Assembly (NCBI RefSeq): GCF_003402475.1
Contig: NZ_BFAB01000004.1
Location: forward strand, 248,001 to 312,000
Direction of reading: 5' to 3'
Length of the DNA: 64,000 nucleotides
Source of the DNA: Mycobacterium sp. MFM001
GTDB taxonomy: Bacteria; Actinomycetota; Actinomycetes; Mycobacteriales; Mycobacteriaceae
Every line of letters starts with the position of its first letter. Position 1 is the first letter of the stretch. The notes below the pieces were generated by a model, which searched no databases, was not told the DNA's origin, and saw only the letters and a list, made by a program, of their open reading frames with translations. Shown here piece by piece: positions 8,763-50,626 of this stretch. The position numbers and the translations under genes are program-made.

Positions 8763-9155
8763 ATGCTCGGCGACGCAGCACGCAGCCTGACTCAAACGGC
8801 CAGTCGTGCGGCGAAGGCAACCACCTCGGCCGCCGGCGCGGTGGGCGGTGCCGCGGTCAACGGCGTCATCGGCGGGGTGACAGGCGCCGCCGCGGGCATC
8901 CAACGTGGACTCGGCAACGGAAGCCATTCGACAGCGGCAGCGGCGCTGGCCCTGGGGGCGATCGGTGTCACCGGGCTGGTCGAATGGCCGGTGGTATTGG
9001 CAGTTGGTGCCGGGGCGTTGGCGTTACGGCAGATGAACCGCGGCTCGACGACTCCGCCGAAGGCGGTGCCCGCCAAGGCGAAAACCTCTGCACCCCCCAA
9101 AAAACGCAAGCCGCCGTCGCGCGGCGGTCAGCGCCGTGCCACCGCCAGCCGGTAG
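8763..9155 (+). CDS. Small glycine-zipper membrane protein, cassette copy 1 (Rv0426c-like)
   Basis: 130-aa protein of unknown function, the first gene of a duplicated cassette with the CtpH ATPase. An Ala/Gly-rich segment with regular small residues (AGAVGGAAVNGVIGGVTGAAAG, residues about 24-44) looks like a glycine zipper. It is followed by two hydrophobic stretches (AAALALGAIGVTGLVEW and VVLAVGAGALAL) and a Lys/Pro/Ala-rich basic tail. RBS-like GGGGAAG lies about 6 nt upstream of the ATG. The paralogue at 13709-14146 shares the core and the GLVEWP motif. It may be an accessory subunit or regulator of the ATPase; this is inferred only from linkage. Confidence 0.82.
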   Translation: MLGDAARSLTQTASRAAKATTSAAGAVGGAAVNGVIGGVTGAAAGIQRGLGNGSHSTAAAALALGAIGVTGLVEWPVVLAVGAGALALRQMNRGSTTPPKAVPAKAKTSAPPKKRKPPSRGGQRRATASR

Positions 9156-9211
9156 GCATTGCAAGTCACAGCACAAAGACGCATCAAGCAACGATTGAAT
9201 ACGGTTTAACC

Positions 9212-12200
9212 TTGCAAAAATCCATACCGTTGCGCGTCGTTTCGAAGGGTATTCAAGCAACGAGCGCCCTCGCCGACGCGTGCATTCAGACTGCAACCAC
9301 CGCCGCCATGCTGGCCACCACGATCGTCGGCTCTGGCGCGGAGCTGGCCGCCACTGCCGTTCGGGAAGGGGCCCAAGCACTCTCGCTCGGTCGCTCCGGT
9401 GCGGCGCCGACCCGGCGCTGCTGGCGCGGCGAAGCCCGGGCGTGGATCGAGGTACGTGGACTGCACGGTCCCGGCGCGGTCGAACGCGAACGCGTAGTAC
9501 TCGACGCGCTCCGGTCCCAGCCGGGCGTCATCTCGGCGAGCCTCAACCGGCCGCTGTCGCGGCTCGTCGTCGAGATCGAAGGCGACTCTACGTCGCTGCC
9601 CGCCTTGTGCCGTGCCGTCGACGATGCCGAAAAGCGCTCCGGGGACGCCGCAGAACGCGCAGGCAGCCTGCCGGGTGATGGCCTGTTGTTGGCGACCAGG
9701 GCAGTGCTGCTCGGCGCCAATGCGGCTGGATTGGGTATCGCGCTGGCGGGCCGGGCCCTGCGGCTGCCGGGAGCGCCGATTGCCGTCAATGCGGCCGCGG
9801 AGATCGCCAATTACCAACCGCGGCTGCGCGGCCTGCTCGAGAACCGAATCGGCACCGGCGCAACGGACGCGCTACTGACGTTGACCACCACCGCCGCGAA
9901 CATCGTCACCCTGTCACCGGCATCGCTGTCGGTGGACTTGATGACCCAGGCGCTCAAGACCGCGGAGTGTCGCGCCGCAGCGCAGGCATGGGCCCGCTAC
10001 GAGCCGGCGCTGGCCCGGTATGCCGACTACCCGGACGACGTACGGCAGCCGTCGCGACCATCACGGCCGGCGGCAGGATCTGTCGAACGGCACGCAAAGC
10101 GTGTCGCGCTGGTGCAGGCGATTGGCGCCGGGGTGATCGGCGCCATCACGCGTAACGTCGGCACGGCATCGACGGCGGCGGTGGTGGCTGCCCCCAAAGC
10201 GATGCGGACCACGCGCGAGTCGTTCACCGCGAAGCTCGGCATCGGGCTGGCCGAGCAGCACGGGGTGCTGCCGTTGCGACCGGACAGCTTGCACCGCCTG
10301 GACAAGGTCGACGCGCTGCTGATCGACCCACGCGTACTGCACAGCGACAAGTTGCGCGTGGTCCGGGTCCGCGGCGCCCGTGACAACGAACTGTCCAGCG
10401 CATGGAACAGCGCCCAAACTCTGCTGGACACAAGCGACCTGAAAACAGGTTGGCACCCGGTGCCCGGGACGAAAGGCGTCGACGCGCTGATCCTTCCCGC
10501 CCAGCACCCGTTGGCATCGGCACTGGTGGCGGAGGCCCGGAGGGCGGGCACCCAGATGCTCTCGGTCGACGCCGACATCCTCGGCGAGTTGCGGCCCGCA
10601 TTCGACGACGTCCGGCCCCTTCACGACACGTCGATCGACGACGCGCTCACTGCGGCATTGGCCGACCTGCAACGGGCCGGGCACACCGTAGCCGTCGTGT
10701 CATCGACTGGCGCGCAAGCACTTTCCGCCGCTGACGTTGCGCTGGGGATTATGCCGAACAGCGCTGAGCCGCCGCCGTGGTACGCCGACCTGCTGCTGCC
10801 CGACCTGGCTGCGGCATGGCACGTACTGCACGCCCTCCCGGCAGCCAGGGCGGCGAGTCGACGAGGCGTCGAAATCTCGGCCGGCGCGTCGGCCATGGGT
10901 GCCCTGTTCATGGTGCCCGGTGTCCGGGGAGCGCGAGGGCCCGGACCGGTGACCGCCGGTGCCGCGGCTGGATTGGTGTCGGGATACCTGCTGGCTCGGG
11001 CGGCAGTTCGCGCCAGCGCACCGAGGCCGGCGCCGGCCTACGACTGGCACGCGATGTCGGTTGCACAAGTCCGCGAGGTGTTGCCGCCACGCGCCGCAGA
11101 GCCGGAGGCTGCCAAGCGCCTCGCCGGGACCGGCACGCAAGCTCCGAACGCGGTATGGCAGTTCGCCAAGGCGGTCGGCGCCGAGTTGTCGGACCCGTTG
11201 ACCCCGGTGCTGGCATTGGGTTCCGCGGCCACCGCCGTGCTGGGTTCGCCGATCGATGCGGCGATGGTCGGCACGGTGCTCGTCGGAAACTCGTTCCTGG
11301 CGGCCGGTCAGCGGCTCCGGGCCGAGACGCGGCTGGACCGCCTGCTGGCCCAGCAGACCCCGCCGGCCCGCAAAGTCGTCGGCGACGACTACAGCGAAAT
11401 CCCCGCCGAGCAGCTGCAACCGGGTGACCTCATCGAGGTGCGCAGCAACGAGGTGGTGCCGGCCGACGCCCGGCTGATCGCAGAAGAGGACCTCGAGGTC
11501 GACGAATCGTCGCTCACCGGCGAGTCGCTGTCGGTGGAAAAACAGGTCGAAGCCACGCCCGGCGCAGAACTCGCCGATCGTCGCTGCATGCTCTATTCGG
11601 GAACACACGTTGTGGCGGGCACCGGTGTCGCACTGGTGACCGCCGTCGGCGCCGACACCCAGGAGCGTCGCGCAGCCGAACTGGCCTCCGGCGATGAGCC
11701 GACCATCGGCTTGCAGCACCAGCTCGGTCAGCTCACCCGTCGCGCTTTCCCGGCCACCGCGGTGGGCGGTGCGGTGGTCAGCGTGCTCGGATTGTTGCAC
11801 CGCAGAGGCCTTCGCCACGCGCTGGGCAACGGCATCGCGGTCGCCGTCGCCGCGGTCCCGGAGGGAATGCCACTGGTGGCCACGCTCGCCCAGCAGGCAT
11901 CGGCATGGCGCCTGAGCAAGTTCGGCGCCTTGGTCCGCGTTCCGCGGTCGGTGGAGGCCCTCGGCCGCGTCGACGTGGTCTGCTTCGACAAGACAGGGAC
12001 ATTGAGCGAAAACCGCCTTCGGGTCACCAAGGTCCGGCCGGTGTCGGGCTTTTCCCGCGACGAGGTGTTGGCCTGTGCGACACATGCGGCTCCGGCGCCC
12101 AATGGCGCCCCGCACGCACATGCCACCGACCAGGCCATCATCGAGGCCGCGTTGGCTGTTAACGGCTCGGGCCCCGCCGTTGAACGGGCCGCTCACCTTC

Positions 12201-13609
12201 CGTTCCGCTCCGGTAGATCGTTTTCGGCGACGGTGTGGGGTACCGAGCTGGCCGTCAAGGGTGCGCCGGAAGTGGTGCTGATGGCCTGCCGAGACGCCGG
12301 CGTAGACGCGCACGACACCGTCGACCGGTTAGCGGCGGAAGGGTTGCGGGTCATCACCGTGGCCCGGCGTCGACTAACCGCACAACAGGTGCGGTCGGTG
12401 CAGAAAGACCCCGACAGCATCGTCGACCTGTGCGGCGAGGGCCTGTCGTTGCTGGGGTTCCTCGGGCTGTCAGACACTCCGCGAGCCGAAGCACCGCAGC
12501 TGCTCGCCGATCTGGCCGCCCACGACGTCGCCATCCGGCTGATCACCGGGGACCATCCCATCACCGCCACAACCATCGCCGGGGAACTTGGCCTTCCGGT
12601 AACCGCCGCCCAAGTCATCACCGGTTCCGAATGGAATGCGTTGTCGCGCAACGAACAAGAACGCGCGGTGTCCGAACGGGTGATCTTCGCCCGGATGTCG
12701 CCGGAAAACAAGGTGCAAATCGTCCAGACATTGGAGCGAACAGGGCGGGTGTGCGCGATGGTGGGCGACGGCTCCAACGACGCGGCAGCGATCAGGGCTG
12801 CCACCGTCGGCGTCGGTGTAGTCGCACACGGAAGCGACCCGGCCCACACCGTCGCCGATGTCGTGCTGACCGAAGGCCGCATCGAATCGCTGCTGCACGC
12901 ACTCGAGGAAGGACGCCGACTGTGGCAGCGGGTGCAAGCGGCGGTGTCTGTGTTGCTCGGCGGCAACGCCAGCCAGGTGATTTTCGCGATCATCGGCAGC
13001 GCATTCAGCGGCAACTCGCCGATGAACACCCGTCAGTTGCTGCTCATGAACGTATTCACCGATGCATTACCAGCCGCGGCCCTTGCGGTGAGCATGCCCA
13101 GCGGGCCGGTGCAGCATCCCCGACACGGCCCGGATGACCGAGCGCTGTGGCGTGCGGTAGCCCTTCGCGGAGGGACCACCGCGGCCGCCGCCACGACCGC
13201 ATGGGCGATGGCCGCGGTCACCGGAAGGCCGCAACGCGCGTCCACGGTGGCGCTGATCGCATCTGTCAGTACCCAACTCGCCCAAACCCTGAAGGAATCG
13301 CACGCTCCGCTGATGGTGCTCACGGCAGCGGGTTCGTTTAGCGCCTTCATGGCACTGATCACCACGCCGGGGGTCAGTCAACTCCTCGGATGCACGCCTG
13401 TCGGTCCGCTTGGGTGGGCGCAGGGGCTGGGATCGGCCGCCGCCGCAACCATTGCGGTGTCGTTGGCGACTCGACTGCTGGCCAACCAGCGCAGCACAAC
13501 AGCACATCTGCGTCCGTCAACCGCATCGTCAACAGCCGCGCCGGCTGGGGCGCGCAGCAACGAAGAAAACGAAGAAGGGGCACCGGCGCTGGTCGGGTCC
13601 GGCGCGTAA
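9212..13609 (+). CDS. ctpH: CtpH-type P-type ATPase, copy 1
   Basis: Very large P-type cation ATPase, about 1465 aa; ion unknown. The C-terminal half is a complete pump: LTGES in the actuator domain (about residues 768-772), phosphorylation site DKTGT at D926, the TGDHPITA motif, GDGSND (D1186) and C-terminal membrane helices. The N-terminal half holds a ferredoxin-like module without CxxC (ARAWIEVRGL) and a degenerate ATPase-core copy with DPRVL (D372) in place of DKTGT. No ATG or GTG lies near the expected N-terminus; TTG at 9212 fits alignment with copy 2 (KSIPLR versus RSMPLR). ATG 9308 is the next option. Codon choice looks less GC-rich than in copy 2. Confidence 0.9.
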   Translation: MQKSIPLRVVSKGIQATSALADACIQTATTAAMLATTIVGSGAELAATAVREGAQALSLGRSGAAPTRRCWRGEARAWIEVRGLHGPGAVERERVVLDALRSQPGVISASLNRPLSRLVVEIEGDSTSLPALCRAVDDAEKRSGDAAERAGSLPGDGLLLATRAVLLGANAAGLGIALAGRALRLPGAPIAVNAAAEIANYQPRLRGLLENRIGTGATDALLTLTTTAANIVTLSPASLSVDLMTQALKTAECRAAAQAWARYEPALARYADYPDDVRQPSRPSRPAAGSVERHAKRVALVQAIGAGVIGAITRNVGTASTAAVVAAPKAMRTTRESFTAKLGIGLAEQHGVLPLRPDSLHRLDKVDALLIDPRVLHSDKLRVVRVRGARDNELSSAWNSAQTLLDTSDLKTGWHPVPGTKGVDALILPAQHPLASALVAEARRAGTQMLSVDADILGELRPAFDDVRPLHDTSIDDALTAALADLQRAGHTVAVVSSTGAQALSAADVALGIMPNSAEPPPWYADLLLPDLAAAWHVLHALPAARAASRRGVEISAGASAMGALFMVPGVRGARGPGPVTAGAAAGLVSGYLLARAAVRASAPRPAPAYDWHAMSVAQVREVLPPRAAEPEAAKRLAGTGTQAPNAVWQFAKAVGAELSDPLTPVLALGSAATAVLGSPIDAAMVGTVLVGNSFLAAGQRLRAETRLDRLLAQQTPPARKVVGDDYSEIPAEQLQPGDLIEVRSNEVVPADARLIAEEDLEVDESSLTGESLSVEKQVEATPGAELADRRCMLYSGTHVVAGTGVALVTAVGADTQERRAAELASGDEPTIGLQHQLGQLTRRAFPATAVGGAVVSVLGLLHRRGLRHALGNGIAVAVAAVPEGMPLVATLAQQASAWRLSKFGALVRVPRSVEALGRVDVVCFDKTGTLSENRLRVTKVRPVSGFSRDEVLACATHAAPAPNGAPHAHATDQAIIEAALAVNGSGPAVERAAHLPFRSGRSFSATVWGTELAVKGAPEVVLMACRDAGVDAHDTVDRLAAEGLRVITVARRRLTAQQVRSVQKDPDSIVDLCGEGLSLLGFLGLSDTPRAEAPQLLADLAAHDVAIRLITGDHPITATTIAGELGLPVTAAQVITGSEWNALSRNEQERAVSERVIFARMSPENKVQIVQTLERTGRVCAMVGDGSNDAAAIRAATVGVGVVAHGSDPAHTVADVVLTEGRIESLLHALEEGRRLWQRVQAAVSVLLGGNASQVIFAIIGSAFSGNSPMNTRQLLLMNVFTDALPAAALAVSMPSGPVQHPRHGPDDRALWRAVALRGGTTAAAATTAWAMAAVTGRPQRASTVALIASVSTQLAQTLKESHAPLMVLTAAGSFSAFMALITTPGVSQLLGCTPVGPLGWAQGLGSAAAATIAVSLATRLLANQRSTTAHLRPSTASSTAAPAGARSNEENEEGAPALVGSGA

Positions 13610-14155: not shown

Positions 14156-17100
14156 TTGAGTACCGTCGAATCCGTGCGAAGATCCATGCCGCTGCGCGCG
14201 GTCGCCATGGGCTTTCAAACCCTGAGCACGACCGCTTCCGTCGGCGCCAGCATGGTCGCTATTCCGGTGCGCGAAGCCGTCAGAGCGGTGTCGGGCGAGC
14301 TGCCCGGCCCGCCGCTGAATCGGCATTGCTGGCGCGGACACAACCGCGCCTGGATCGAGGTGCGTGGCCTGGACCGCCCCGACGGCGACGAACTCGCAAG
14401 TACCGTCCTCGACGCGGTCACCGCCCGCCCAGGCGTCGTCTCGGCCAAGCTGAACCGTCCGTTGTCGCGGGTGGTCGTCGAACTCGACGGCGACCACGTG
14501 TCGCTGCATGAGCTGTGTCGGGTGGTCGAGGGCGCCGAAACCGGCCGCGCAGACGGCGAACGCCCCAAACCGCTGCCCGGCGACGGCCTGGTGCTGGCCA
14601 CCAAGGCCGTGGCGGTCGGCGCCACCGCCGCCGGGATGGGCGCCGCGCTGGCCGGCCGGGTGCTGCGCTGGCCGCGGCTGCCGGACACCGTCGAGGCGGT
14701 CGTGGTGGCCGTGGACTACCAGCCGCGGCTGCGCCGTCTGCTCGAGGACCGGATCGGCCAGCCGGCCACCGACACCGTGCTGACGCTGGCGATGACCGCC
14801 GCGCACATCATTTCGCTCGCCCCGGCGTCGCTGGCGGTCGACCTGATGATGGAAACGATCAAAGCCGCCGAGTGCCGCGCCGAGGCGCAGGCCTGGCACC
14901 GGCACGAGCCGAGGCTGGCCCCCCACGCTGACAATGACGACGTCTATCTGCCGTCGCGGCCGGTGCCGGCACCGCCGGGGCCCGCCGAGCGCCACGCCCA
15001 GCGGGCGGCGTACGCGCAGGCCGTCGGCGCGGGCGTCGTCGGCGCCGCTGCGCGCAACGTCAACATGGCCGGCACCGCGGCGCTGGTCGCCGCACCCAAG
15101 GCGCTGCGCACCACCCGCGAGTCGTTCGCCGCGGCGCTCGGCCAGGGGTTGTCCGACCGGCACGGGGTGCTGCCGCTGCGCCCGCACAGCCTGCGCCGGC
15201 TCGACCAGGTCGACGCCCTGCTCGTCGACCCGCGGGTGTTGTGCACCGACAAACTGCGGGTGGTGCGCGTCCGCGGCGCCCGCGACGACGAACTGGCGCA
15301 GGCATGGGAGCGCGCCCAGTCGCTGCTGGACGACGCCGACGTGGGCTGGCACCGGGTTCCCGGCGGGCGGGGCCGCCGAGTCGAAGCGCTGATCTGCCCC
15401 ACCCACGACCCGCTGGCGCCGGCGGTGATGGCCGAGGCCCGCCGCTGCGGCGTGGACCTGATCTCCGTCGACACCGACGCGCTCGGCGAACTGCGGCGCG
15501 CGTTCGACGAGGTCCGGCCGCTGGATGTCGGGTCCATTGACGACGCGCTCGTCGACGCGCTGGCGCACCTGCAGCAAGACGGTCATACCGTGGCGGTGCT
15601 GTCGTCGGCGGCGGCGCAGGCACTGTCGTCGGCCGACGTGGCGCTGGGCCTCATCCCGGGCGACGAGAACGAGCCGCCGCCGTGGTACGCCGATCTGCTG
15701 CTGCCCGACCTGGCCGCTGTCTGGCGGGTGCTGCACGCGCTGCCGGCGGCCAAGTCCGCCACCCAGCGTGGTATCGAAATATCCACTGGCGCTTCGGCTT
15801 TGGGCGCGCTGCTGATGCTTCCCGGCGTCCGCGGCCGCGGGCCCGGCCCGGTGACCACAGGCGCGGCGGCCGGGTTGCTGTCCGGCTACTGGCTGGCCCG
15901 CGGGGTGGTTCACGCCCCGACACCGCGACCGGCTCCGGTCCAGGAGTGGCACGCGATGACCGTCGAACAGGTCCGCCGCGAGCTCCCGCCGCCCGCCGAG
16001 CCCGACGTCGCCACGCCCAGCCGCGCCGTCGCCACGGCTCAACGCGGCGCGGAGATCACCGCCCGGCCAAGCCGCGCGGTCTGGAATTTCGTCAAGGCCG
16101 TGCGCGCCGAATTGTCAGACCCGCTGACCCCGGTCCTCGCGCTCGGCTCGGCGGCCAGCGCGGTGCTGGGCTCGCCGGTCGACGCGGTTCTGGTCGGCTC
16201 GGTGCTCACCGGGAACGCCGTGCTCGCCGCCAGCCAGCGACTGCGCGCCGAGAGCCGGCTGAACCAGTTGCTGGCGTTGCAGATTCCGCCGGCCCGCAAG
16301 GTCACTGCCGACGGCTACACCAATGTCAAAGCGGCGCAACTGCGTCCAGGCGACGTGATCGAGGTGCGCACGCACGAGGTGGTGCCCGCCGACGCCCGGC
16401 TGATCGAGGAAGAAGACCTCGAGGTCGACGAATCCACCCTCACCGGCGAGTCGCTGCCCGTCGAGAAGCAGACCGAGCCGACTCCGGGCGTGGACCTGGC
16501 CGACCGTCGCTGCATGGTGTTCGCCGGTACCACCGTGGTGGCCGGCACCGCGCTGGCGGTGGTGACCGCCGTCGGCGCCGACACGCAGGCGCGCCGCGCC
16601 GCCGAACTCGCGTCCGGTGAGCTGCCCGACGTCGGGCTGCAACACCAGCTCAGCCAGCTGACCAACCGCGCCTTCCCGGTCAGCATGGCCGGCGGTGTCT
16701 TGGTGAGCGCGCTGGGAATGTTGCGCCGCAAGGGTTTACGCCAGGCGGTGGCCAGCGGCATCGCCGTCACCGTGGCGGCCGTGCCCGAAGGGATGCCGCT
16801 GGTGGCCACCCTGGCCCAGGCGGCGTCGGCCCGACGGCTGACCAATTACGGTGCGCTGGTACGCATTCCGCGGTCGGTGGAGGCGCTCGGCCGCGTCGAC
16901 GTGGTGTGCTTCGACAAGACCGGCACGCTGTCGGAGAACCGGCTGCGGGTGTCGCAGGTGCATCCCGTTGGAAGCCATTCGCGCGAAGAGGTGCTGCACT
17001 GCGCGGCGCACGCCGCGCCGACCGCCAACGGCAGCCCGCACGTGCACGCCACCGACCGGGCCATCATCGAAGCGGCGCAGTCGGTCAACGGCTCCGCGCC

Positions 17101-18568
17101 CACCGACGAGCCCGATGCGCACCTGCCGTTCCGGTCCGGCCGGTCGTTCTCGGCCTCGGTGTCCGGCGACCAGCTCACCGTCAAGGGCGCACCGGAAGTG
17201 GTGCTGCGCGCCTGCCAGAACGGCGCCGCCGACTCCGAGCGCACGGTGCGCGGCCTAGCGGGCGAAGGGCTGCGGGTAATCGCGGTGGCACGCCGGCAGC
17301 TGACCGCGGAGCAGGCTCGTTCGGTCCAGGACGACGAGGACGCCATCGACGACCTGTGCCGAGACGGCTTGTCGCTCACCGGATTTCTCGGGCTGTCCGA
17401 CACGCCGCGGGACCAGTCAGCCGGCCTGCTGGCGGACCTGGCCGAGCGCAACACGGCCATCCGGCTGATCACCGGCGACCACCCGATCACCGCGACCGCG
17501 ATCGCCGCGGAGCTGGGCATGCCGGTGACGCCCGAGCAGGTGATCACCGGCACCGAGTGGGACGAGTTGTCCCGCAAGGATCAGGAGCGGGCCGTCGCCG
17601 AGCGGGTGATCTTCGCCCGGATGTCACCGGAGAACAAGGTGCAGATCGTCCAGACGCTGGAACGCACCGGCAAGGTGTGCGCGATGGTCGGCGACGGCTC
17701 CAACGACGCCGCCGCGATCCGGGCGGCCACCGTCGGCATCGCCGTCGTCGCGCGCGGCAGCGACCCGGCCAGCGTCGCGGCCGACGTGGTGCTGGTCGAC
17801 GGCCGGATCGAGGCGCTGCTGCACGCGATCGAGGAAGGCCGCGAGCTGTGGCGCCGCGTGCAGGCGGCGGTGTCGGTGCTGCTGGGCGGCAACGCCGGCG
17901 AGGTTGGCTTCGCGATCATCGGCAGCGCGCTGACCGGCAGCTCACCGCTGAACACCCGCCAACTGCTGCTGGTGAACATGCTCACCGACGCGCTGCCGGC
18001 GGCGGCGTTGGCCGTCAGCCAGACGACCGGGTCGGGCAACCGCGAGGGACGCGGGCCCGACCAGCAGGCGCTGTGGCGTGCGGTCGCAATCCGCGGGACG
18101 ACGACGGCCGCGGCCGCGACTGCGGCCTGGGCGATGGCCGGGGTGACCGGACGGCCGCGGCGGGCGTCGACGGTGGCGCTGGTCGCGCTGGTGTCCGCCC
18201 AGCTGGGCCAGACCCTGCTCGACTCGCACGCCCCGCTGGTCGTGCTCACCGCGGGCGGCTCGCTGGTCGCGATGGGGACGCTGATCAGCATCCCGGGAGT
18301 CAGCCAGCTGCTCGGCTGTACACCTCTCGGGCCCATCGGCTGGGCGCAGGGGCTGGGATCAGCCGCGGTGGCAACCGTCGCGGTAGCCGCCGCACCCCGT
18401 CTGCTGTTTGGCCAGCTCCAAGAGTCTGATCAGCCGGAACAGCCTCCAGAACACCGGCCCGCCACAGCACCGCGTACAACTCGATCACCGGAACGGTCAA
18501 CGCAACAGCGAGCGCTGAAGCTAGTGGATCGGCCAGAGCATCGGTCGTCGACATACCTCCGACAGTGA
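14156..18568 (+). CDS. ctpH: CtpH-type P-type ATPase, copy 2
   Basis: 1470-aa P-type cation ATPase, paralogous along its whole length to the copy at 9212-13609. Functional motifs are intact: TGES (residues 763-766), DKTGT with phosphorylated D920, TGDHPITA and GDGSND. The N-terminal half again carries a ferredoxin-like module (RAWIEVRGLDRPDG) and a degenerate ATPase core with DPRVL at D358. The start is probably TTG 14156 (MSTVESVRRSMPLR); GTG 14174 and ATG 14186 are alternatives. It follows its small partner gene by 9 nt. Transport substrate cannot be read from the sequence; M. tuberculosis CtpH is usually listed as a metal-cation transporter. Confidence 0.92.
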   Translation: MSTVESVRRSMPLRAVAMGFQTLSTTASVGASMVAIPVREAVRAVSGELPGPPLNRHCWRGHNRAWIEVRGLDRPDGDELASTVLDAVTARPGVVSAKLNRPLSRVVVELDGDHVSLHELCRVVEGAETGRADGERPKPLPGDGLVLATKAVAVGATAAGMGAALAGRVLRWPRLPDTVEAVVVAVDYQPRLRRLLEDRIGQPATDTVLTLAMTAAHIISLAPASLAVDLMMETIKAAECRAEAQAWHRHEPRLAPHADNDDVYLPSRPVPAPPGPAERHAQRAAYAQAVGAGVVGAAARNVNMAGTAALVAAPKALRTTRESFAAALGQGLSDRHGVLPLRPHSLRRLDQVDALLVDPRVLCTDKLRVVRVRGARDDELAQAWERAQSLLDDADVGWHRVPGGRGRRVEALICPTHDPLAPAVMAEARRCGVDLISVDTDALGELRRAFDEVRPLDVGSIDDALVDALAHLQQDGHTVAVLSSAAAQALSSADVALGLIPGDENEPPPWYADLLLPDLAAVWRVLHALPAAKSATQRGIEISTGASALGALLMLPGVRGRGPGPVTTGAAAGLLSGYWLARGVVHAPTPRPAPVQEWHAMTVEQVRRELPPPAEPDVATPSRAVATAQRGAEITARPSRAVWNFVKAVRAELSDPLTPVLALGSAASAVLGSPVDAVLVGSVLTGNAVLAASQRLRAESRLNQLLALQIPPARKVTADGYTNVKAAQLRPGDVIEVRTHEVVPADARLIEEEDLEVDESTLTGESLPVEKQTEPTPGVDLADRRCMVFAGTTVVAGTALAVVTAVGADTQARRAAELASGELPDVGLQHQLSQLTNRAFPVSMAGGVLVSALGMLRRKGLRQAVASGIAVTVAAVPEGMPLVATLAQAASARRLTNYGALVRIPRSVEALGRVDVVCFDKTGTLSENRLRVSQVHPVGSHSREEVLHCAAHAAPTANGSPHVHATDRAIIEAAQSVNGSAPTDEPDAHLPFRSGRSFSASVSGDQLTVKGAPEVVLRACQNGAADSERTVRGLAGEGLRVIAVARRQLTAEQARSVQDDEDAIDDLCRDGLSLTGFLGLSDTPRDQSAGLLADLAERNTAIRLITGDHPITATAIAAELGMPVTPEQVITGTEWDELSRKDQERAVAERVIFARMSPENKVQIVQTLERTGKVCAMVGDGSNDAAAIRAATVGIAVVARGSDPASVAADVVLVDGRIEALLHAIEEGRELWRRVQAAVSVLLGGNAGEVGFAIIGSALTGSSPLNTRQLLLVNMLTDALPAAALAVSQTTGSGNREGRGPDQQALWRAVAIRGTTTAAAATAAWAMAGVTGRPRRASTVALVALVSAQLGQTLLDSHAPLVVLTAGGSLVAMGTLISIPGVSQLLGCTPLGPIGWAQGLGSAAVATVAVAAAPRLLFGQLQESDQPEQPPEHRPATAPRTTRSPERSTQQRALKLVDRPEHRSSTYLRQ

Positions 18569-18614
18569 TGGCAGCACCCGGCCCGGCGGCAAACCCAACG
18601 TTTCAGAAAGGCAA

Positions 18615-18893
18615 ATGATGGTGGAAAAGAAGGCGCGCCGCAGCGCCACCCAGCGCGAAGCCGTCGACCACATCCGCGAGGGCGAGACCTTCTTCGTCAA
18701 CCTGCCGGTCGTGGGACGGGTGGAAGTTCCGCGGCCCGAGCAGCTGGCCTATTACGGCGGTTTGGCCGCGCTGGCCGCCTTCGAGCTGATCGACTGGCCG
18801 GTCGCGCTGGTCATCGCCGCGGGCCACATCCTGGCCAGCAACCACCACAACAAGCTGCTCGAGGAGCTCGGTCAGGCCATGGAAGAGGTCTGA
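18615..18893 (+). CDS. Small conserved membrane-associated protein (Rv0424c-like)
   Basis: 92-aa protein of unknown function. A basic N-terminus and a hydrophilic first half (REGETFFVNLPVVGRVEVPRPEQ) are followed by two short hydrophobic stretches (LAYYGGLAALAAFELI and WPVALVIAAGHILASN). The WPVALVIAAG segment resembles the EWPVVLAVGAG segment of the small cassette proteins upstream, so the three may be distant relatives. A GAAAGG ribosome-binding site precedes the tandem ATGs at 18615 and 18618. The 3' end overlaps the convergent hybrid kinase gene by 22 nt. Confidence 0.85.
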   Translation: MMVEKKARRSATQREAVDHIREGETFFVNLPVVGRVEVPRPEQLAYYGGLAALAAFELIDWPVALVIAAGHILASNHHNKLLEELGQAMEEV

Positions 18894-21800
18894 CCCACCG
18901 CGTGGTCGAACCGCAGGCTGATCCGGGTGCCCGCAGCGGTGCGCGCCGTCTCGACGTGGTCGGCGAGCCCGTTGATCAGCATGAGCCCGCGTCCGCGCTG
19001 CAGGCTGCGCAGGCTGGCCGACGAATCCCCTGACCAGCGGCCGGCGTCGCTGACGGTCACGGCCACGCTGTCGCCGCGCACGAAGGCCTCGACGGAAACC
19101 GTGGCGGCCCGGTCGTCGCGGCTGCCGTGTTCGATCGCGTTGGTGACCGCTTCTCCGGTGGCCAGCAGGATGTCGGCCTCGCGTGGCGGGTCGGCCACGA
19201 CGCCGGACAACCAGCGGCGCAGCCGGCGCCGCGCGCCCGCGATGTGGGCCACCTCGGCGGGAATCACGGTGGCGAAGCTGCGCGCGGCGACGTGGCTGGG
19301 CCGCAGCGCCAGCACCGCCACGTCGTCGGTGTAGCCGCCGGGCGGGCGCATCCGGTCGAGCAGCACCCCGCAGATGTCGCCGACCGGCAGCTCGGCGCAG
19401 TCCGCGGCCGCCGCCCGCAGCCGCGCGAATCCCTGGTCCAGACCCTCCCCCGGTCGCTCGATCAGCCCGTCGGTGTAGAGCAGAACCACACTTCCCGGCG
19501 GCAACTCGGCGGTCGCAGCCTCGTGGGTCGAGCGGTTTTCCGCCACCGACACCGGCGGACGGCGGCCGGACTGCAGAAACGCCGGCTCGTTGCCGGGTGC
19601 GACCAGCAGCGGGTAGGGATGGCCCGCGCAGCTGTAGCTGATGCCGGCCACATTGTCGCCGACGTCGACGACGGCATAGGCCACCGTCGCGCAGCGCGCA
19701 CCCTGGACGGTCAGCGCGTAACGATCCAGGGCCGTCAGCACCGCGGCCGGATCGGGGTCGGTGAGGGCGGCGGCGGCCACGGCGGCCCGCAGCCTGCTCA
19801 TCACGATCGCGGCGGGCAGACCGTGTCCGACCACGTCGCCGACGGAGATTGCCAGCTGGCCGGGTCGGTCGAGCGGGGTCACCAGGTACCAGTCGCCGCC
19901 GACGCGCAGTGCCTCGCCGGCGGGTTGATATGTGGCGGCGACGACGGCGGCGGTGGTCCCGCGGTCCAGGTCGAGCAGATGCTCCTGGAAGTCGGCGGCG
20001 ATGCGGTGCTCGTGCGCCATGTTGCGGATCCGGTCGACGGCCGACTGGGTGATCTGCGCGGTGCGGGCGAACGTGTCGAGCTCGTCGTCGTCGAACGTGC
20101 GGGGTTGCGGCCACACCAGCATCAGCGCGCCGATCACCCGTCCGGTCTGGCCGCGCAGCGGGTGGACGACCAGGGCGCGTGCGACGTCGGCGCCGTCGCG
20201 CACGGCGTGCTGGTAGCGCGGCGGCAGCCGGAACGTGTCCGTAATGACCGCCGGCTCACCGGTTTTCACGACGTCGACCAACACCAGCAGCGCGTCCAGT
20301 CCGAGCACGTGGTAGCGGTCCTGCAGTTCGGTGGGCACCGCGCCGGCGTAGTCGACGCGGATGTTGTCCTCCTCGGTGTCGAGGACGCCGATCGCCACCG
20401 CCGAGGCGTCGCCCACCGCGTCGACGGCGGAGTGCAGCAGCTCGGGCAGGATGCCGGGGACCGACTCGATGGCCTGCAGCGCAGCGTCGAGTTGTTCCGT
20501 TGCAGCAGAATGCTTTTGGCGGCTAGCAGCGGACAGCCGCGCGGCGAGCCGGTCGATCAGCTCTTGGGAGCGGAACGGCTTGGGCAGGTAGTCGTCGGCG
20601 CCGCCGGCGTAACCTTCGCTGACGGCTTCGGCGCCGGCCCGCGCGGACAGCATCAGGATCGGGGTGCCCGCCAGCTCGGGGTCGGCGCGGATGGCCGCGA
20701 CAAAGTCGAATCCGTCGAGCCGCGGCATCATCACGTCGGTCACCACCGCATCCGGGCGAAGCTCGCGGGTGGTCCGCAGGGCCGCTTCGCCGTCGGCGAC
20801 GAGCACGGTTCGCCAGTGCGCGGAGACGATCCTCTCCAAATGGGCCCGCATGTCGGCGTTGTCGTCGGCGATCAGCACCAGCTCGCGGTCGTCGTGTTGG
20901 CGGGTCGGTGACGCGGACACCGGGGCCAGCCACTGGCCGGCCTCGACGACGTATGGGTTGTCGGCCAGCCCGGCCGGTGAATGCTCGACCGGTGTGCCGC
21001 CGGCGGATTGCGGCAGCACGATCGTGACGGTGGTGCCGCGGTCGAGTTCGCTGTCGATGTGCACGGTCCCGCGCTGCAGCTCGACCAGCCCGCGCACCAG
21101 CGACAGCCCGATGCCGGTGCCCTCCACGCTGCGGCCGCGGGCGGTGCCGGCGCGAAAGAAGCGCTCGCCCAACCGGTTGAGGTCGTCGCCGCCGATGCCC
21201 ACCCCCGTGTCGCTGACGATGATCCGACACTGCCCGGAATCGCACTGCGCCCCAACCGTTATCGAGCCCTTCAGCGTGTACTTGACCGCGTTGGACAGCA
21301 GGTTGAGCATGATGGTTTCCCACATCGCCGGGTCGACGTCGGCCAGCGCCGGCCGGCAGTCCAGCACCAGCTCGAGCCCGGCCCGCTGGCACAGTTCGCT
21401 GAACGACGACGCGATGTCGGCGGTCAGCGCACCGACATCGGTGCACACCAAATCGGCGGTGGCCCGGCCGGCTTCGATCCGGGAGAAGTCGAGCAGCGAG
21501 TCGACCAGGCGCAGCAGCCGGCCCGCGTTGCGCCGGGCGGTGCGCAGCCGCTGCGCCAGCAGCGAGTCCGGGCCGATATCGGACAGCGCGTCGTCGAGCG
21601 GGCCCATCAGCAGGGTCAGCGGGGTGCGGAATTCGTGGCTGACGTTCGTGAGGAACGCGGTCTTGGCGTGGTCCAGCTCGGCGAGCGCGTCGGCGCGTTG
21701 CCGCTCCTGCTCGTACGAAGTGGCGGACGCCAGCGCCGACGACAACTGGTCGGCGAGCAGTTGGCAAAAGCCGCGGTACTGCGTGTCCAGCGGGCAGCGC

Positions 21801-22669
21801 GGGCTGACGCCGACCACCAGCGCGCCGGCGGTCGAGCCCTCGCCCAGCGCCACCACCAGAATCTGCTCGGGACAGTCGCTGCCCAGCACCTCGTCGAGCC
21901 CGGGGATCAGCGACGCCGCCCCGTCGATCACCTGCAAGTCGGCTCGGGACCGCTGCGCGGGATCCCAGTCGGTCAACTCCGCCAGTGCGTGCGGCAGCAG
22001 CGGCAGCACCGACGGTGTGCCGCCGCGCAACGTGTTGCCGACGTAGGCCGCGACGAGCGGCACGTCCGCGGATTGGTTGGCGCACACCGCAACTGCGGCG
22101 TCGACCGCGTCGTCAATCGTGCGGGTCTCCATCGTCGCCGAGGCCACCGCGTTGAGCAGGTGCAGGCGACGCTCGCTCAGCACCCGTTCGGTGGTTTCGA
22201 AAGACGGGCAGAAGATGCCGTAGATCGCGCCGTCGGAGCCGATCAGTGGGCTGTAGGTGAACGTGAAATAGCGCTCCCGGCGCCGGCCGCCGGTCACCAT
22301 CGGCAGCATCAGGTCGTGCGACCAGGTGGCCTCGCCGGTGGCGACGACGCCGGCGAGCATCGGGCTGATCGGTTCCCAGATGTCCCACCACACCTCGCGG
22401 CCGGGCCGGCCCAGCGCCCCGGGGTGCTTGTCGCCCAGGATCTGGATGTAGGCGTCGTTGTAGACCAGGAACAGGTCCTCGGCGCCCAACCACAGCACGA
22501 TCGGGAACCGCGAGGTCAACACCACCGCCACCGCCGAGCGCACTTCGGCGGGCCAGTCCTGCGGGGCCCCCAAAGGGTGTGCGGCCCAGTCGAATTCGGC
22601 GAACAGTCGGCCCAGTTCGCCGCCGAGTTCAACCGCGGCGGCAAGGTCAGCGGGTAGGTGCTCGCTCAC
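18872..22669 (-). CDS. Hybrid histidine kinase / receiver / SpoIIE phosphatase / RsbW-like ATPase fusion
   Basis: 1265-aa signalling protein. Order: PAS-like region (about 20-165), GAF-like region (170-320), HisKA with phospho-His H345 (SHEFRTP), HATPase_c with N-box LSNAVKYT and G-boxes SDTGVGIG and EGTGIGLSL (450-555), receiver domain with phospho-Asp D645 (TDVMMP) and K697, second GAF (720-880), SpoIIE-type PP2C phosphatase with GGDWY, GDVVGHG, YTDGLIE and TDDVAV (920-1125), and a C-terminal RsbW-type HATPase with EAVTNAIEH (1173-1181). All catalytic residues appear intact. The GTG start at 22669 overlaps the STAS gene stop (GTGA). Likely role: convert a phosphorelay signal into partner-switching control of an anti-sigma antagonist; that is inference from domains. 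Confidence 0.93.
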   Translation of the reverse strand: MSEHLPADLAAAVELGGELGRLFAEFDWAAHPLGAPQDWPAEVRSAVAVVLTSRFPIVLWLGAEDLFLVYNDAYIQILGDKHPGALGRPGREVWWDIWEPISPMLAGVVATGEATWSHDLMLPMVTGGRRRERYFTFTYSPLIGSDGAIYGIFCPSFETTERVLSERRLHLLNAVASATMETRTIDDAVDAAVAVCANQSADVPLVAAYVGNTLRGGTPSVLPLLPHALAELTDWDPAQRSRADLQVIDGAASLIPGLDEVLGSDCPEQILVVALGEGSTAGALVVGVSPRCPLDTQYRGFCQLLADQLSSALASATSYEQERQRADALAELDHAKTAFLTNVSHEFRTPLTLLMGPLDDALSDIGPDSLLAQRLRTARRNAGRLLRLVDSLLDFSRIEAGRATADLVCTDVGALTADIASSFSELCQRAGLELVLDCRPALADVDPAMWETIMLNLLSNAVKYTLKGSITVGAQCDSGQCRIIVSDTGVGIGGDDLNRLGERFFRAGTARGRSVEGTGIGLSLVRGLVELQRGTVHIDSELDRGTTVTIVLPQSAGGTPVEHSPAGLADNPYVVEAGQWLAPVSASPTRQHDDRELVLIADDNADMRAHLERIVSAHWRTVLVADGEAALRTTRELRPDAVVTDVMMPRLDGFDFVAAIRADPELAGTPILMLSARAGAEAVSEGYAGGADDYLPKPFRSQELIDRLAARLSAASRQKHSAATEQLDAALQAIESVPGILPELLHSAVDAVGDASAVAIGVLDTEEDNIRVDYAGAVPTELQDRYHVLGLDALLVLVDVVKTGEPAVITDTFRLPPRYQHAVRDGADVARALVVHPLRGQTGRVIGALMLVWPQPRTFDDDELDTFARTAQITQSAVDRIRNMAHEHRIAADFQEHLLDLDRGTTAAVVAATYQPAGEALRVGGDWYLVTPLDRPGQLAISVGDVVGHGLPAAIVMSRLRAAVAAAALTDPDPAAVLTALDRYALTVQGARCATVAYAVVDVGDNVAGISYSCAGHPYPLLVAPGNEPAFLQSGRRPPVSVAENRSTHEAATAELPPGSVVLLYTDGLIERPGEGLDQGFARLRAAAADCAELPVGDICGVLLDRMRPPGGYTDDVAVLALRPSHVAARSFATVIPAEVAHIAGARRRLRRWLSGVVADPPREADILLATGEAVTNAIEHGSRDDRAATVSVEAFVRGDSVAVTVSDAGRWSGDSSASLRSLQRGRGLMLINGLADHVETARTAAGTRISLRFDHAVGQTSSMA

Positions 22670-23034
22670 GTCTCTTTTGGATGGTGATCCTGCAGCGCAT
22701 CGGCCAGCGTCGGGAAGATATGCAGGACGCTGTCCAGGTTGGTCACTTCGATCGGCCGGGTCACCAGGTCGTTGTCGGCCACCAGCCGCACCGACGTTCC
22801 CGCTTCGGCTCCTCGCCGGTGGCAATCGAGCACAGCGTTCAGCCCGGCGCTGCCGAAGTAGGTCAGCGACTGCAAGTCGAGGACGAGCAGCCGCGCGACA
22901 TGAGCCGTAGCCTGCTCGAGCGCGGAGGTGAGATCGGAAACGAAGGCGCCGACGTTGCTGGAATCCAGTTCACCCTTGACGTGCACGACGACCGCTTCGG
23001 GAAGAACTTCACAGTCGATCGCCAACAATTCCAT
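22666..23034 (-). CDS. STAS-domain anti-sigma factor antagonist
   Basis: 122-aa SpoIIAA/RsbV-like protein. The STAS pattern is clear: VHVKGELDSSNV, LLVLDLQSLTYFGSAGLNAV with the phosphorylatable serine at S62. Such proteins are phosphorylated by an RsbW-type kinase and dephosphorylated by a SpoIIE-type phosphatase. Both activities are encoded in the protein translated immediately downstream (GTGA overlap), so this is very probably its cognate substrate. The sigma factor or other target is not encoded in the window. Confidence 0.92.
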   Translation of the reverse strand: MELLAIDCEVLPEAVVVHVKGELDSSNVGAFVSDLTSALEQATAHVARLLVLDLQSLTYFGSAGLNAVLDCHRRGAEAGTSVRLVADNDLVTRPIEVTNLDSVLHIFPTLADALQDHHPKET

Positions 23035-23132
23035 CCATTCACCCGCTTCGATGCACGCGCGGAAACGGAATGCGGTGCCGACCCGCCGTCTCTGCAGCCC
23101 AACTCTGTACCGAGCCTAGCCTGGACGTGAGT

Positions 23133-23807
23133 CTAATTGCGCGAGTCGCCGGATACCCGTCCGTGGACCGTGAGCAAGAGATGGTCGAATTCGCTTTGGA
23201 CGTGGGGCGATGGCGGCGGCAGGGTGCTGACTTCATCGACCAACTGCTTGGCCAGCTCGCGCAGTTTGGTGTTGGTCTCCTGCGATCGCCACCGCAACAC
23301 GCCGAAGGCCTGCTCGGCGCTGACCCGGTAGATGGCCATCAGCACACCCTTGGCCTGCTCGATCACCGCGCGGGCCTCGAACAGGTCGGGCAGCGTCTCG
23401 TCGAGGACCTCTTGGCGGGTCTCCTCGAACGTGTCGGTCAGGTCGATGTAGTAGCCGGCGGTCCCCACCACCGCGCCGGTCTCGTCGGTCATCCGGTCGC
23501 CGACCACGATCGCGTCGTGCACAGTGCCGGCGGTGTCGAGGAAGCGGTGGCGGCTGGAGAACGTGCCGCCGCCGTGCAGCGCGCGGTCGAGGATCTCCTG
23601 GACGTGGGCGCGGTCCTCGGGATGCTTGTGCGCGAGCATCAGTTCCGTCGTCGGCACCACCGACCCGGGTTCGTAGCCGTGCATCCGGGCCACCTCGTCG
23701 GACCACTCCCAGCGCTGACCCACGAACCAGAACCGGAACGCGCCGACGTTCGAGTAGGCGTCGGCGCCGGGAGGGAATCCCGTCGTCGCTCTGGCAGTCC
23801 TCTGCAC
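23133..23807 (-). CDS. PAS-ANTAR domain RNA-binding antiterminator
   Basis: 224-aa regulator with an N-terminal PAS fold (about residues 20-123; RFWFVGQRWEWSDEVARMHG, HPEDRAHV, YYIDLTD) and a C-terminal ANTAR domain (about 141-195; EARAVIEQAKGVLM, the family signature). ANTAR proteins bind paired stem-loops in leader RNAs and prevent termination. Start is GTG 23807. The gene is upstream of and co-directional with the STAS and hybrid kinase genes (98 nt gap), suggesting one sensory module. It is divergent from thiC. Confidence 0.9.
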   Translation of the reverse strand: MQRTARATTGFPPGADAYSNVGAFRFWFVGQRWEWSDEVARMHGYEPGSVVPTTELMLAHKHPEDRAHVQEILDRALHGGGTFSSRHRFLDTAGTVHDAIVVGDRMTDETGAVVGTAGYYIDLTDTFEETRQEVLDETLPDLFEARAVIEQAKGVLMAIYRVSAEQAFGVLRWRSQETNTKLRELAKQLVDEVSTLPPPSPHVQSEFDHLLLTVHGRVSGDSRN

Positions 23808-23914
23808 GGTAAGAAATCATTCCACCCGCGAGGCCTACCGGCCAGGGGTTGTGCCTCGGTCGAATTCTTTCCAGCCGCCGCGGTCGCACTGCGCTAGCGT
23901 GGTCAGGGTCCGAC

Positions 23915-26439
<2,525 letters not shown>

Positions 26440-48761: not shown

Positions 48762-49625
48762 TTAGCCCGCGTCGGCGAGATCGGGATCTTCCACCCGCAG
48801 GTTGCTCAGCTCGAGCAGCTCGGCCAGCCGGGCCACCATGCGCCGGTCGGTCTGCAGGACCACCTGCCGCCCGTCCGCCGCGGCGAGCCGATCCATCGCA
48901 ACGAGCTGCGGGTGTGTGACGAAGTCCAAAGCCCGCGCGTCGACGACCACCTCGTCGCCGGCAGCCAGCGGCCAGATCCGTTGCAGCGCAGTGTTGAACG
49001 CCTCGCCGTCGGCTGCGTCGAGTTCACCGGCCAAGGCGAAATCGATGCCCTGCTCCGCATAGATGCGGAAGCCGACCGCACCCGCATTGACCATCGGATG
49101 CAGGCACATCAACTCCTTGGCGGTGTCACCCAAGATGCCGAGGTCGTAGGCACACAGCGCCCCGAAGGGCAGCACCGCCATCTTCTGGTCGACGAGGTAC
49201 TCGAGGCGGGCGAATGCGGCCCGCTGCTCGGGCGTGCGGACCAGCACCGCCCCGTCGACCACCGCGCGGCAGCCACTGCATCCCGTCCCGACCACGAACT
49301 TCATCGCGGCCACCCCGTCGGCCACCGTCGCCTCCGCGTCGACGATGTCGGTGCCCGGAACGAACCGATAGTGCTCGCGCACCGGCGTCACCGCGATCTG
49401 CCCGGTGCGCACCGCATCGGCGAAACCCATCTCGTCAAGCTCTGTGCGCAGGGCGGCGGCGCTGGCGTCGCACGCGTACAAAATGCGCTGGTTGCGCGCG
49501 AGGCCGTCGGCGATGTATTCCGCCGCGCGCCGCAGGAACTCCGAGCGACCGCGATAGCCCCACGCCACGTGCCCCAACGGATTGAGGCCGGCGGCGGAAG
49601 TGACTTCACCGTGCCGTCGGGTCAT
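48762..49625 (-). CDS. MEDS-domain sensor fused to degenerate STAS domain
   Basis: 287 aa. N-terminal MEDS (DcmR-type sensory) domain, about residues 15-165: HVAWGYRGRSEFLRRAAEYIADGL, a CxxC pair at C116/C119 (GTGCSGC), YLVDQKMAVLPFGALCAYD and LMCLHPMV. C-terminal STAS-like domain, about 190-280 (FALAGELDAADGEAFN, VVVDARALDFVTH). The position that carries the regulatory serine in STAS antagonists reads THPQL, so canonical phosphorylation is unlikely. It follows the MEDS-ATPase gene by 35 nt on the same strand; the two probably act together. Confidence 0.86.
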   Translation of the reverse strand: MTRRHGEVTSAAGLNPLGHVAWGYRGRSEFLRRAAEYIADGLARNQRILYACDASAAALRTELDEMGFADAVRTGQIAVTPVREHYRFVPGTDIVDAEATVADGVAAMKFVVGTGCSGCRAVVDGAVLVRTPEQRAAFARLEYLVDQKMAVLPFGALCAYDLGILGDTAKELMCLHPMVNAGAVGFRIYAEQGIDFALAGELDAADGEAFNTALQRIWPLAAGDEVVVDARALDFVTHPQLVAMDRLAAADGRQVVLQTDRRMVARLAELLELSNLRVEDPDLADAG

Positions 49626-49660: not shown

Positions 49661-50626
49661 TCACATAATCGAGATATTCGCCGCGGTCATGCCGCCGACG
49701 CGGTCGAGCCGGAGGTAGGCATGAATGGTGGTGCCCTCCGGCGTGGTGTGCATGCGCAACAGGTCGACGACCGCATTGACGACGAAGAGGCCGGACGAGC
49801 TCGGTTTGTCGCGGCTCGGCGGCCGGCGTCCGGCCAGCGGGTCGGCAAGAACGCCGGTATCGCGGGCTTCGCACACCAGGTGACGCTCGTACTCCCACAG
49901 CGAGAGCCGGCACGCCGTCCCGCCGTGCTGCAGGCTGTTGGTGGCCAGCTCGGTGATGACGAGTTGCAGGTCGGCGACCCTGTCGGCGGGCAGGCCGAGC
50001 AACCGGGCGTAGCGATTGCCGTACCGGCGCCCACCGGCCAGGTCGAGCGGCCGGGCGACCGTGTACCTCACAGCGGCGGGACTTGCTCCCAGCGGTTGGT
50101 TGCAGCGCGCCAGCGCGACGTCGACGTCGTAGTCGGCGCTGCGCTCCCGCGTTCCGTTCCACCGGATCAGCGGATGCGTGGCACGGATGTCGGCCAGCAC
50201 AGCGTCGTCGAGCAGCGACGCATCGTACGGACACAGCCCCGCCACCTGGTAGTCGCCGAAGGCCTTGTTGACCAGGGCTTCGTGCTGGATGCAGGCGGGG
50301 TATTCGAGGGCGCTGCGCCCAGGCCACATCGGCTCGGTGACCATGCGGACAGCGCGGTGGCGGTGCCGTTCGGCGAAGGCCAGTTCCGCCGCGAGGATGC
50401 AGCCCGGATTGCGGCCCATCTCGCAGATGTCGACCCATGCCACCCGGCTCGCCGAGTCGCCCAGCGCGCACCGCAGCAGGGCCAGTTTGTCTGGCGGGAG
50501 CGCCGCCCACACCGGCTGCGCCTTGGCCAGCCCTTCGGAGATGAAGGGAACGACGGCGCCGAGGTATTCCTCCGGCGACCGGTAGAACATGGCGGCGTGC
50601 TGGTCCATCGGCTGACGCCTACCCAT
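49661..50626 (-). CDS. MEDS-domain sensor fused to RsbW-type anti-sigma ATPase
   Basis: 321 aa (or 315 from ATG 50608). MEDS domain at about residues 9-170 (AAMFYRSPEEYLGAVVPFI, VDICEMGRNPGCILAA, GLCPYDASLL). GHKL ATPase domain at about 195-310 with N-box ELATNSLQH (E226, N230), ARDTGVL and SSGLFVVNAVVD. This matches serine-kinase anti-sigma factors. A sensory domain on the kinase implies direct ligand control of partner switching. It precedes the MEDS-STAS gene and may recognise it or the STAS at 22666-23034. Confidence 0.87.
   Translation of the reverse strand: MGRRQPMDQHAAMFYRSPEEYLGAVVPFISEGLAKAQPVWAALPPDKLALLRCALGDSASRVAWVDICEMGRNPGCILAAELAFAERHRHRAVRMVTEPMWPGRSALEYPACIQHEALVNKAFGDYQVAGLCPYDASLLDDAVLADIRATHPLIRWNGTRERSADYDVDVALARCNQPLGASPAAVRYTVARPLDLAGGRRYGNRYARLLGLPADRVADLQLVITELATNSLQHGGTACRLSLWEYERHLVCEARDTGVLADPLAGRRPPSRDKPSSSGLFVVNAVVDLLRMHTTPEGTTIHAYLRLDRVGGMTAANISIM

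Follow-up and report, generated by a model that had tools for sequence, protein, structure and literature searches.

A pathway of histidine kinase, receiver-PP2C protein, RsbW-type kinase and phospho-serine STAS protein is described for Mycobacterium smegmatis (RsfS/RsfR/RsbW2/RsfB), where, in the cited parts of its description, it feeds SigF through a separate anti-sigma factor (PMC10950880, PMC7693655). Here we describe a locus with comparable components in a stretch of 64,000 nucleotides (nt) of Mycobacterium sp. MFM001 (NCBI RefSeq assembly GCF_003402475.1, contig NZ_BFAB01000004.1, positions 248,001 to 312,000 of the forward strand; hereafter the window, to whose first letter coordinates refer). 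Three genes encode a PAS-ANTAR protein, a STAS protein and a fusion chain of 1265 amino acids (aa). While the M. smegmatis components are four separate proteins, kinase, receiver-PP2C and RsbW are joined here in one chain. RsfS carries a CHASE3 domain where the fusion has PAS and GAF domains, and the cited parts of the Rsf account mention no ANTAR protein (PMC10950880, PMC7693655).

HsbR with its partner HsbA in Pseudomonas aeruginosa, and CrsR with CrsA in Shewanella, combine a receiver, a PP2C and an RsbW-type domain in one chain that acts both ways on one STAS protein (PMC6482189). The fusion has the same receiver-PP2C-RsbW order and a presumed STAS partner; a histidine kinase stands ahead of these domains, and the receiver is separated from the PP2C by a GAF domain. 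The histidine kinases of HsbR and CrsR act in trans, via HptB in P. aeruginosa, whereas that of the fusion lies in the chain itself; neither a PAS/GAF block nor an ANTAR partner appears in the cited part of their account (PMC6482189). SypE of Vibrio fischeri likewise unites an RsbW-like kinase, a receiver and a PP2C with opposing activities on the STAS protein SypA, but its domain order as named differs from that of the fusion, and no histidine kinase is named in the chain in the passages cited (PMC12826045, PMC8256260). Rv1364c shares PAS, PP2C and RsbW in this order, and its structure 3ke6 matches aa 907-1252 of the fusion (PDB 3ke6, 3k3c; PMC7693655). It has no histidine kinase or receiver, and its kinase and phosphatase are reported to act on a STAS domain within its own chain (PMC7693655), whereas the STAS protein of the window locus is encoded by a separate gene; a separate Rv1364c-like gene is present at C6 of the window genome. 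In Bacillus cereus, the hybrid histidine kinase RsbK stands upstream of the receiver-PP2C protein RsbY, which dephosphorylates the STAS protein RsbV, an arrangement of two chains and a separate RsbW as against the one chain here (PMC4574943, in part).

The first-pass annotation, made from the window sequence alone, had called the locus an unusual built-in switch. Kinase and opposing phosphatase for one STAS protein in one receiver-bearing chain are already known from the cited accounts of HsbR/CrsR (PMC6482189) and SypE (PMC12826045, PMC8256260), so that the novelty narrows to the in-chain histidine kinase and the pairing with ANTAR. As far as searched, these two features and the recurrent absence of the controller have not been described before: in the titles and abstract openings of papers listed by searches of open-licence full texts, with few subscription papers covered, we found neither a mycobacterial histidine kinase-receiver-PP2C-RsbW chain nor an ANTAR-STAS pair. 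Relatives of the chain are already deposited in public databases, e.g. under the name "SpoIIE family protein phosphatase".

Architecture of the three-gene unit

We favour, with moderate confidence, the reading that the three genes form one unit that likely serves as a partner switch; the phosphorylation state of Ser62 in the STAS protein would be under the control of the fusion. All three are on the minus strand. The PAS-ANTAR gene (23133..23807) encodes 224 aa with PAS_3 at 33-118 and ANTAR at 144-190. It is separated by a gap of 98 nt (23035..23132) from the STAS gene (22666..23034), whose 122-aa product matches Pfam STAS and has S62 (codon 22849-22851) as predicted phospho-acceptor. The fusion gene (18872..22669) follows with a 4-nt overlap, GTGA being common to both reading frames. 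Among the three genes, Pfam finds no sigma factor. Mycobacteria are rich in partner-switch parts, and the assignment of kinases and phosphatases to STAS proteins is known for few; since one chain beside one STAS gene brings together His-Asp relay, phosphatase and counteracting kinase, two proteins could suffice to reconstitute signal, switch and substrate.

The single chain with four predicted activities and apparently intact motifs, as first annotated, is borne out by Pfam matches, each above the curated cut-off, and by residue checks. From the N-terminus the fusion comprises PAS_4 (aa 67-163, 22181..22471), a GAF-like domain (about aa 181-295, 21785..22129) and a histidine kinase core (21008..21667) of HisKA (335-401, with H345) and HATPase_c (449-554, with the N/G boxes and N460, D487 and G519). 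These are followed by a Response_reg receiver (aa 598-708, 20546..20878) with acceptor D645, DD602-603, S675 and K697, and by GAF_2 (aa 736-878, 20036..20464). The C-terminal part consists of a SpoIIE-type PP2C (aa 924-1123, 19301..19900; Pfam bounds 936-1123) with metal-binding aspartates at 926, 945, 1067, 1115 and 1116, and an RsbW-type ATPase (HATPase_c_2, aa 1136-1253, 18911..19264) with intact N, G1 and G2 boxes and the residues E1173, N1177, H1181, D1208 and G1228. The chain accordingly has the parts of a hybrid histidine kinase, namely HisKA with its histidine, HATPase_c and a receiver with acceptor aspartate, and together with the STAS protein and its conserved serine those of a partner-switching module of the RsbU/RsbW/RsbV type. 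All domains and residues named at first (H345, D645 and S62 among the latter) were recovered, but the N-terminal PAS, the GAF-like domain and the second GAF had been missed.

Two pieces of the fusion were modelled with AlphaFold. The model of aa 1-323 (mean pLDDT 92.5) contains an alpha/beta fold at aa 181-295, a region without a match in the Pfam scan of the window fusion; GAF_2 occurs at the equivalent place of two longer homologues, which suggests a GAF-like domain. The top structural matches of this model are PAS-GAF photoreceptors and the PAS domain of Rv1364c, with low TM-scores over the query (about 0.35). For aa 713-1265 (mean pLDDT 82.3), the model has the Rv1364c RsbU-RsbW structure 3ke6 as best match and predicts a continuous helix of 38 residues (aa 861-898, 19976..20089) from the GAF domain to the PP2C. 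A helical linker coupling sensor domains to PP2C dimers is reported for RsbU, and the same type of linker is predicted in other proteins including OsaC and Rv1364c, according to the cited part of PMC12143880.

Distribution, conservation and turnover

A genus sample of 297 genomes, selected evenly out of a larger set, contains STAS matches at E 1e-22 or better in 116 genomes (window included), fusion matches at 1e-100 or better in 164 and ANTAR-protein matches at 1e-60 in 222, paralogues included. Among the fusion matches listed, 51 (window included) cover nearly the whole chain, one of them truncated by a contig end, and most others reach only about aa 1-723. One STAS locus per genome was classified by tblastn in the 115 genomes besides the window. 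Full-length fusions are present at 49 loci (class A; L155 is interrupted by a contig end) and short forms without kinase and receiver at six (class B), five of these with PAS-GAF-PP2C-RsbW and one, L102, also without PAS. At 33 loci the chain is a longer homologue whose open frame spans 1384-1575 codons (class C); in two such proteins Pfam finds additional PAS domains between receiver and PP2C. The other 27 loci have no such chain: 16 at the thiC locus (class D), three more there with debris, and eight at other locations (class E), where five of the eight neighbourhoods were viewed as raw reading frames and L205 has only 3 kb downstream.

The window genes lie between thiC and a convergent gene that we take to be Rv0424c-like; one or both of these occur in every stretch of classes A, B and D, and neither in any of classes C and E. 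The ANTAR gene adjoins STAS directly 5' in 113 of the 115 loci (L124 has none and L173 starts near a contig end; at L116 the match is confined to the C-terminal part), with class medians of the gap at 86-137 nt, one class C value being an artefact of start choice. The 4-nt overlap of STAS and chain recurs in 47 of 49 full-length, all six short and 21 of 33 longer-homologue loci. The upstream ANTAR gene and the cognate-looking STAS gene with its GTGA overlap, as noted in the window, thus stand. Co-conservation of the three genes holds for ANTAR and STAS, which are nearly always together; it fails for the fusion with its 27 vacant loci.

In an order-wide sample, the fusion is matched at 1e-200 in seven of 298 genomes, all in one of 76 genera, the window's own, and two of the seven are short forms. 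The same ANTAR-STAS-fusion order is found in Nocardia otitidiscaviarum and Nocardia sp. CC227C, in a stretch without thiC or Rv0424c-like gene. Of the named records, M. kyorinense DSM 45166 is closest, with a fusion 90% identical and both flanks in place. We rejected an oddity of one genome as explanation, given 49 orthologous loci in the genus sample and the two Nocardia.

Conservation extends to every catalytic position examined. H345, N460, D487, G519, D602, D603, D645, S675 and K697 are identical in all 49 full-length and 33 longer chains, and the five PP2C aspartates and the five RsbW residues listed above are invariant in the same chains (RsbW readable in 48 of the 49). The short forms retain the PP2C and RsbW positions, except for D926N in one of the six. 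This invariance, together with short forms that keep phosphatase and ATPase and not the kinase, speaks against the proposal that the chain arose by domain shuffling and works as no more than a hybrid kinase, its phosphatase and ATPase parts being vestigial. Such a proposal would find some footing in the variable domain content, since the short forms lack the kinase-receiver block and 27 loci lack the chain altogether, but we regard it as very improbable.

On a tree of aligned ANTAR and STAS sequences (114 rows, built by a quick method; support is below 80% for 43 of its 111 inner branches), the presence of the fusion at the thiC locus requires at least 13 changes; the label "no chain" needs 15 changes over the whole tree, and the well-supported branches by themselves force 10. 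Three loci (L115, L156, L158) retain PAS pieces of the fusion, followed in L115 by a stop, and the start of the gap in L161 resembles, by eye, the first fusion codons. At L113, whose row is closest to that of the window, STAS continues directly into the end of the Rv0424c-like gene. The debris indicates loss in those cases, and the fusion appears to have been lost many times; part of the changes could likewise be gains, since the tree alone does not give their direction. Behind the broken PAS piece of L115, still between STAS and the Rv0424c-like gene, we observed by eye an apparent end of another STAS-like frame.

Class C falls on one side of a branch with support of 98, so that this STAS was probably already coupled to a kinase-phosphatase chain before the split. 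The short forms fall among the thiC-locus rows, and their matches to the window fusion cover aa 5-152 and 713-1252; loss of the intervening block is the most likely origin of the short chain. In 12 of the 33 class C loci (e.g., L184, L214 and L221), a second, distant STAS match (26-38%) lies just 3' of the kinase in another frame, possibly giving two STAS substrates per chain.

Through this turnover the STAS protein is retained. Ser62 is a serine in all 115 other loci, including the 27 without a chain. At the 19 thiC loci that lack a chain, STAS is under purifying selection: measured against the closest relative with a fusion, pN/pS is 0.08-0.50, whereas 48 fusion-bearing loci have a median of 0.27, a pattern that may include mild relaxation. 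As the fusion comes and goes on the tree and leaves debris while STAS remains under selection, we regard the ANTAR-STAS pair as the durable core and the fusion as an expendable, replaceable controller. Loci that retain ANTAR and STAS without the large controller represent natural knock-outs, which make a link of partner switching to RNA-level control testable and raise the question of the role of the pair alone.

The same observations could be explained if the fusion were only an accessory input and ANTAR-STAS were served mainly by other cellular RsbW and PP2C proteins. The vacant loci, the repeated changes on the tree and the serine conserved under selection would all fit, and so would two to 10 SpoIIE-domain matches elsewhere in each of the 19 genomes with a chain-less thiC locus. 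Where the fusion is present, however, the frame overlap and the identical three-gene order in two Nocardia suggest a dedicated pair, and 33 further loci couple STAS to the longer kinase-phosphatase homologue. We consider an accessory role rather unlikely, though a serious alternative.

Partners and output of the putative switch

If the three genes act as a partner switch, the PAS and GAF domains would sense a signal, the kinase would phosphorylate H345, and the phosphate would pass to D645. The receiver, via GAF and the predicted helix, would then raise or lower the activity of the PP2C. According to the cited parts of the literature, receiver phosphorylation inhibits M. smegmatis RsfR and activates B. 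cereus RsbY (PMC10950880), and HsbR is drawn as turning from kinase to phosphatase upon phosphorylation (PMC6482189). The PP2C would remove, and the RsbW domain add, the phosphate on Ser62. The short forms agree with this scheme, as the part that remains after loss of kinase and receiver is the part that would act on STAS. The PAS-ANTAR protein would add a second arm that acts on RNA under the control of its PAS domain.

Unphosphorylated STAS would capture a partner encoded elsewhere, most likely a SigF-type anti-sigma factor, since the unit has no sigma gene and the window genome has a homologue next to SigF that resembles the kinase-negative RsbW1. This SigF homologue lies at C5:219132, and the anti-sigma-like match just upstream of it (28.4 bits) is without N, G1 and G2 boxes, which are kept in the RsbW-type domain of the fusion, in the Rv1364c-like protein at C6 and in a PP2C-RsbW protein of 887 aa at C1. 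In M. smegmatis, the anti-SigF factor RsbW1 is reported without kinase activity on RsfB, the kinase being RsbW2 (PMC7693655, in part). A comparable division of labour would fit the window genome, and by analogy we infer that the STAS protein may feed SigF.

Alternatively, the C-terminal RsbW domain might itself be the anti-sigma factor, with sigma freed when unphosphorylated STAS binds. In the parts of the literature cited, such a role is proposed for CrsR and HsbR with RpoS (PMC6482189) and suggested for Rv1364c with SigF, for which binding in vitro is reported (PMC7693655); the third domain of HsbR and CrsR, which have the receiver-PP2C-RsbW order of the fusion, binds RpoS in two-hybrid tests (PMC6482189). 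The three genes, however, encode no sigma factor, and RsbW2, the kinase-competent homologue of M. smegmatis, did not bind SigF (PMC7693655, in part). We consider this alternative unlikely.

A further, quite improbable output is an RNA-binding protein: STAS, in the phosphorylation state set by the fusion, would bind the PAS-ANTAR protein and control it, by which His-Asp and Ser circuits would drive RNA-level control directly and not a sigma factor. This possibility is suggested by the coexistence of the pair, which holds for 113 of the 115 loci, whether at thiC or at other places, by its repeated survival without the kinase and again by the lack of a sigma gene in the unit.

The evolutionary distances of STAS follow those of the fusion. 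Over 43 of the 49 full-length loci (omitted are L155 as cut, L116 with partial ANTAR, L124 without ANTAR and three without ThiC), STAS and RsbW-domain distances are correlated beyond the flanking genes (partial r 0.65, permutation p 0.002).

Several observations weigh against the favoured reading of a partner switch set by the fusion. The correlation is not specific to the ATPase, as the partial r of STAS is 0.71 with the histidine kinase, 0.70 with the second GAF and 0.63 with ANTAR; when it is conditioned on the remaining domains of the fusion, RsbW has 0.38, the kinase 0.31 and PP2C -0.16. The retention of STAS without a chain at 27 of 115 loci implies that the fusion is not its sole possible regulator. 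Extra fusion copies, 61-62% identical, exist without an ANTAR match at two places outside the 115 loci (L109 = L051, M. gordonae, at the second STAS match of genome G119; L110, the second fusion copy of G030), their STAS being either divergent (41%) or not found. M. kyorinense E861 (L036/L124) has STAS and fusion without an ANTAR match, thiC and the Rv0424c-like gene being in place. Upstream of ANTAR, a SigF-type promoter pattern, from what we take to be the consensus, occurs at none of 113 loci; at 0.003 per 350 nt it is so infrequent that its absence means just that there is no obvious site.

Two further sets of genes in the window genome are related to these proteins. A second PAS-ANTAR paralogue, 52% identical, is encoded at C7:150419-151030 (L223), with no STAS or fusion match in the 12 kb examined. 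In the window itself, a 321-aa protein ending in an RsbW-like ATPase domain (49661-50626, minus strand; HATPase_c_2, 50 bits) and a 287-aa protein with an end that is STAS-like by eye (48762-49625, minus strand) form a possible second partner-switch pair.

The ANTAR-STAS leader and neighbouring features

The first-pass annotation had also linked RNA-level antitermination to the locus, which our results do not bear out. Besides the ANTAR domain, an antiterminator of this type has a hexaloop target that overlaps a terminator beside the regulated gene, and none was found in the ANTAR-STAS gap, the part of the genome in which it was sought. The window gap has no terminator-like site, the only one in 18500-24050 being near 18640 (fewer than the 2.0 expected by chance), and TTTT occurs in two of 95 leaders of 60 nt or more. 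Classical antitermination between ANTAR and STAS is not supported. No sigma-70-type promoter match was found in the 98-nt gap; its TAGGCT resembles what we take to be a mycobacterial -10 element.

A conserved RNA element in the STAS leader as ANTAR target is a weak lead from sequence comparison. ANTAR domains are reported to bind hexaloops with G at position 4 (PMC8934654, in part). The UCGGGY loop caps a stem of at least four pairs in 23% of its 60 occurrences, compared with 7% for background positions, and the motif is present in only 24 of 41 class A leaders and absent from that of the window. An alignment of 25 leaders yields two consensus pairs and no two-sided change. Within five clades, consensus folds compared with column shuffles give z of -6.0 (15 leaders), -4.8 (9), -0.7 (6), -2.0 (11) and -2.5 (4), values inflated by near-identical rows and column shuffling; two-sided changes affect 0 of 29 pairs in the first clade, 3 of 23 in the second and 2 of 26 in the fifth. 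Compared with dinucleotide shuffles, six of seven single leaders are within range (z -0.97 to 1.56, window 0.21) and one has z -2.87. In the main text of a survey of actinobacterial ANTAR RNAs, as far as cited, the terms STAS, sigma factor and anti-sigma are absent (PMC8164766).

The Rv0424c-like gene (18615..18893, plus strand) is convergent with the fusion, and their 3' ends overlap by 22 nt (18872-18893). On the other side, the divergent thiC is preceded by a TPP riboswitch (23913..24023, plus strand), the only Rfam match above the gathering score in 18500-24300. At 8984-13609 and 14156-18568 on the plus strand, P-type ATPases of 1541 and 1470 aa are encoded side by side; both have the same three Pfam domains and are presumably CtpH/CtpI-like.

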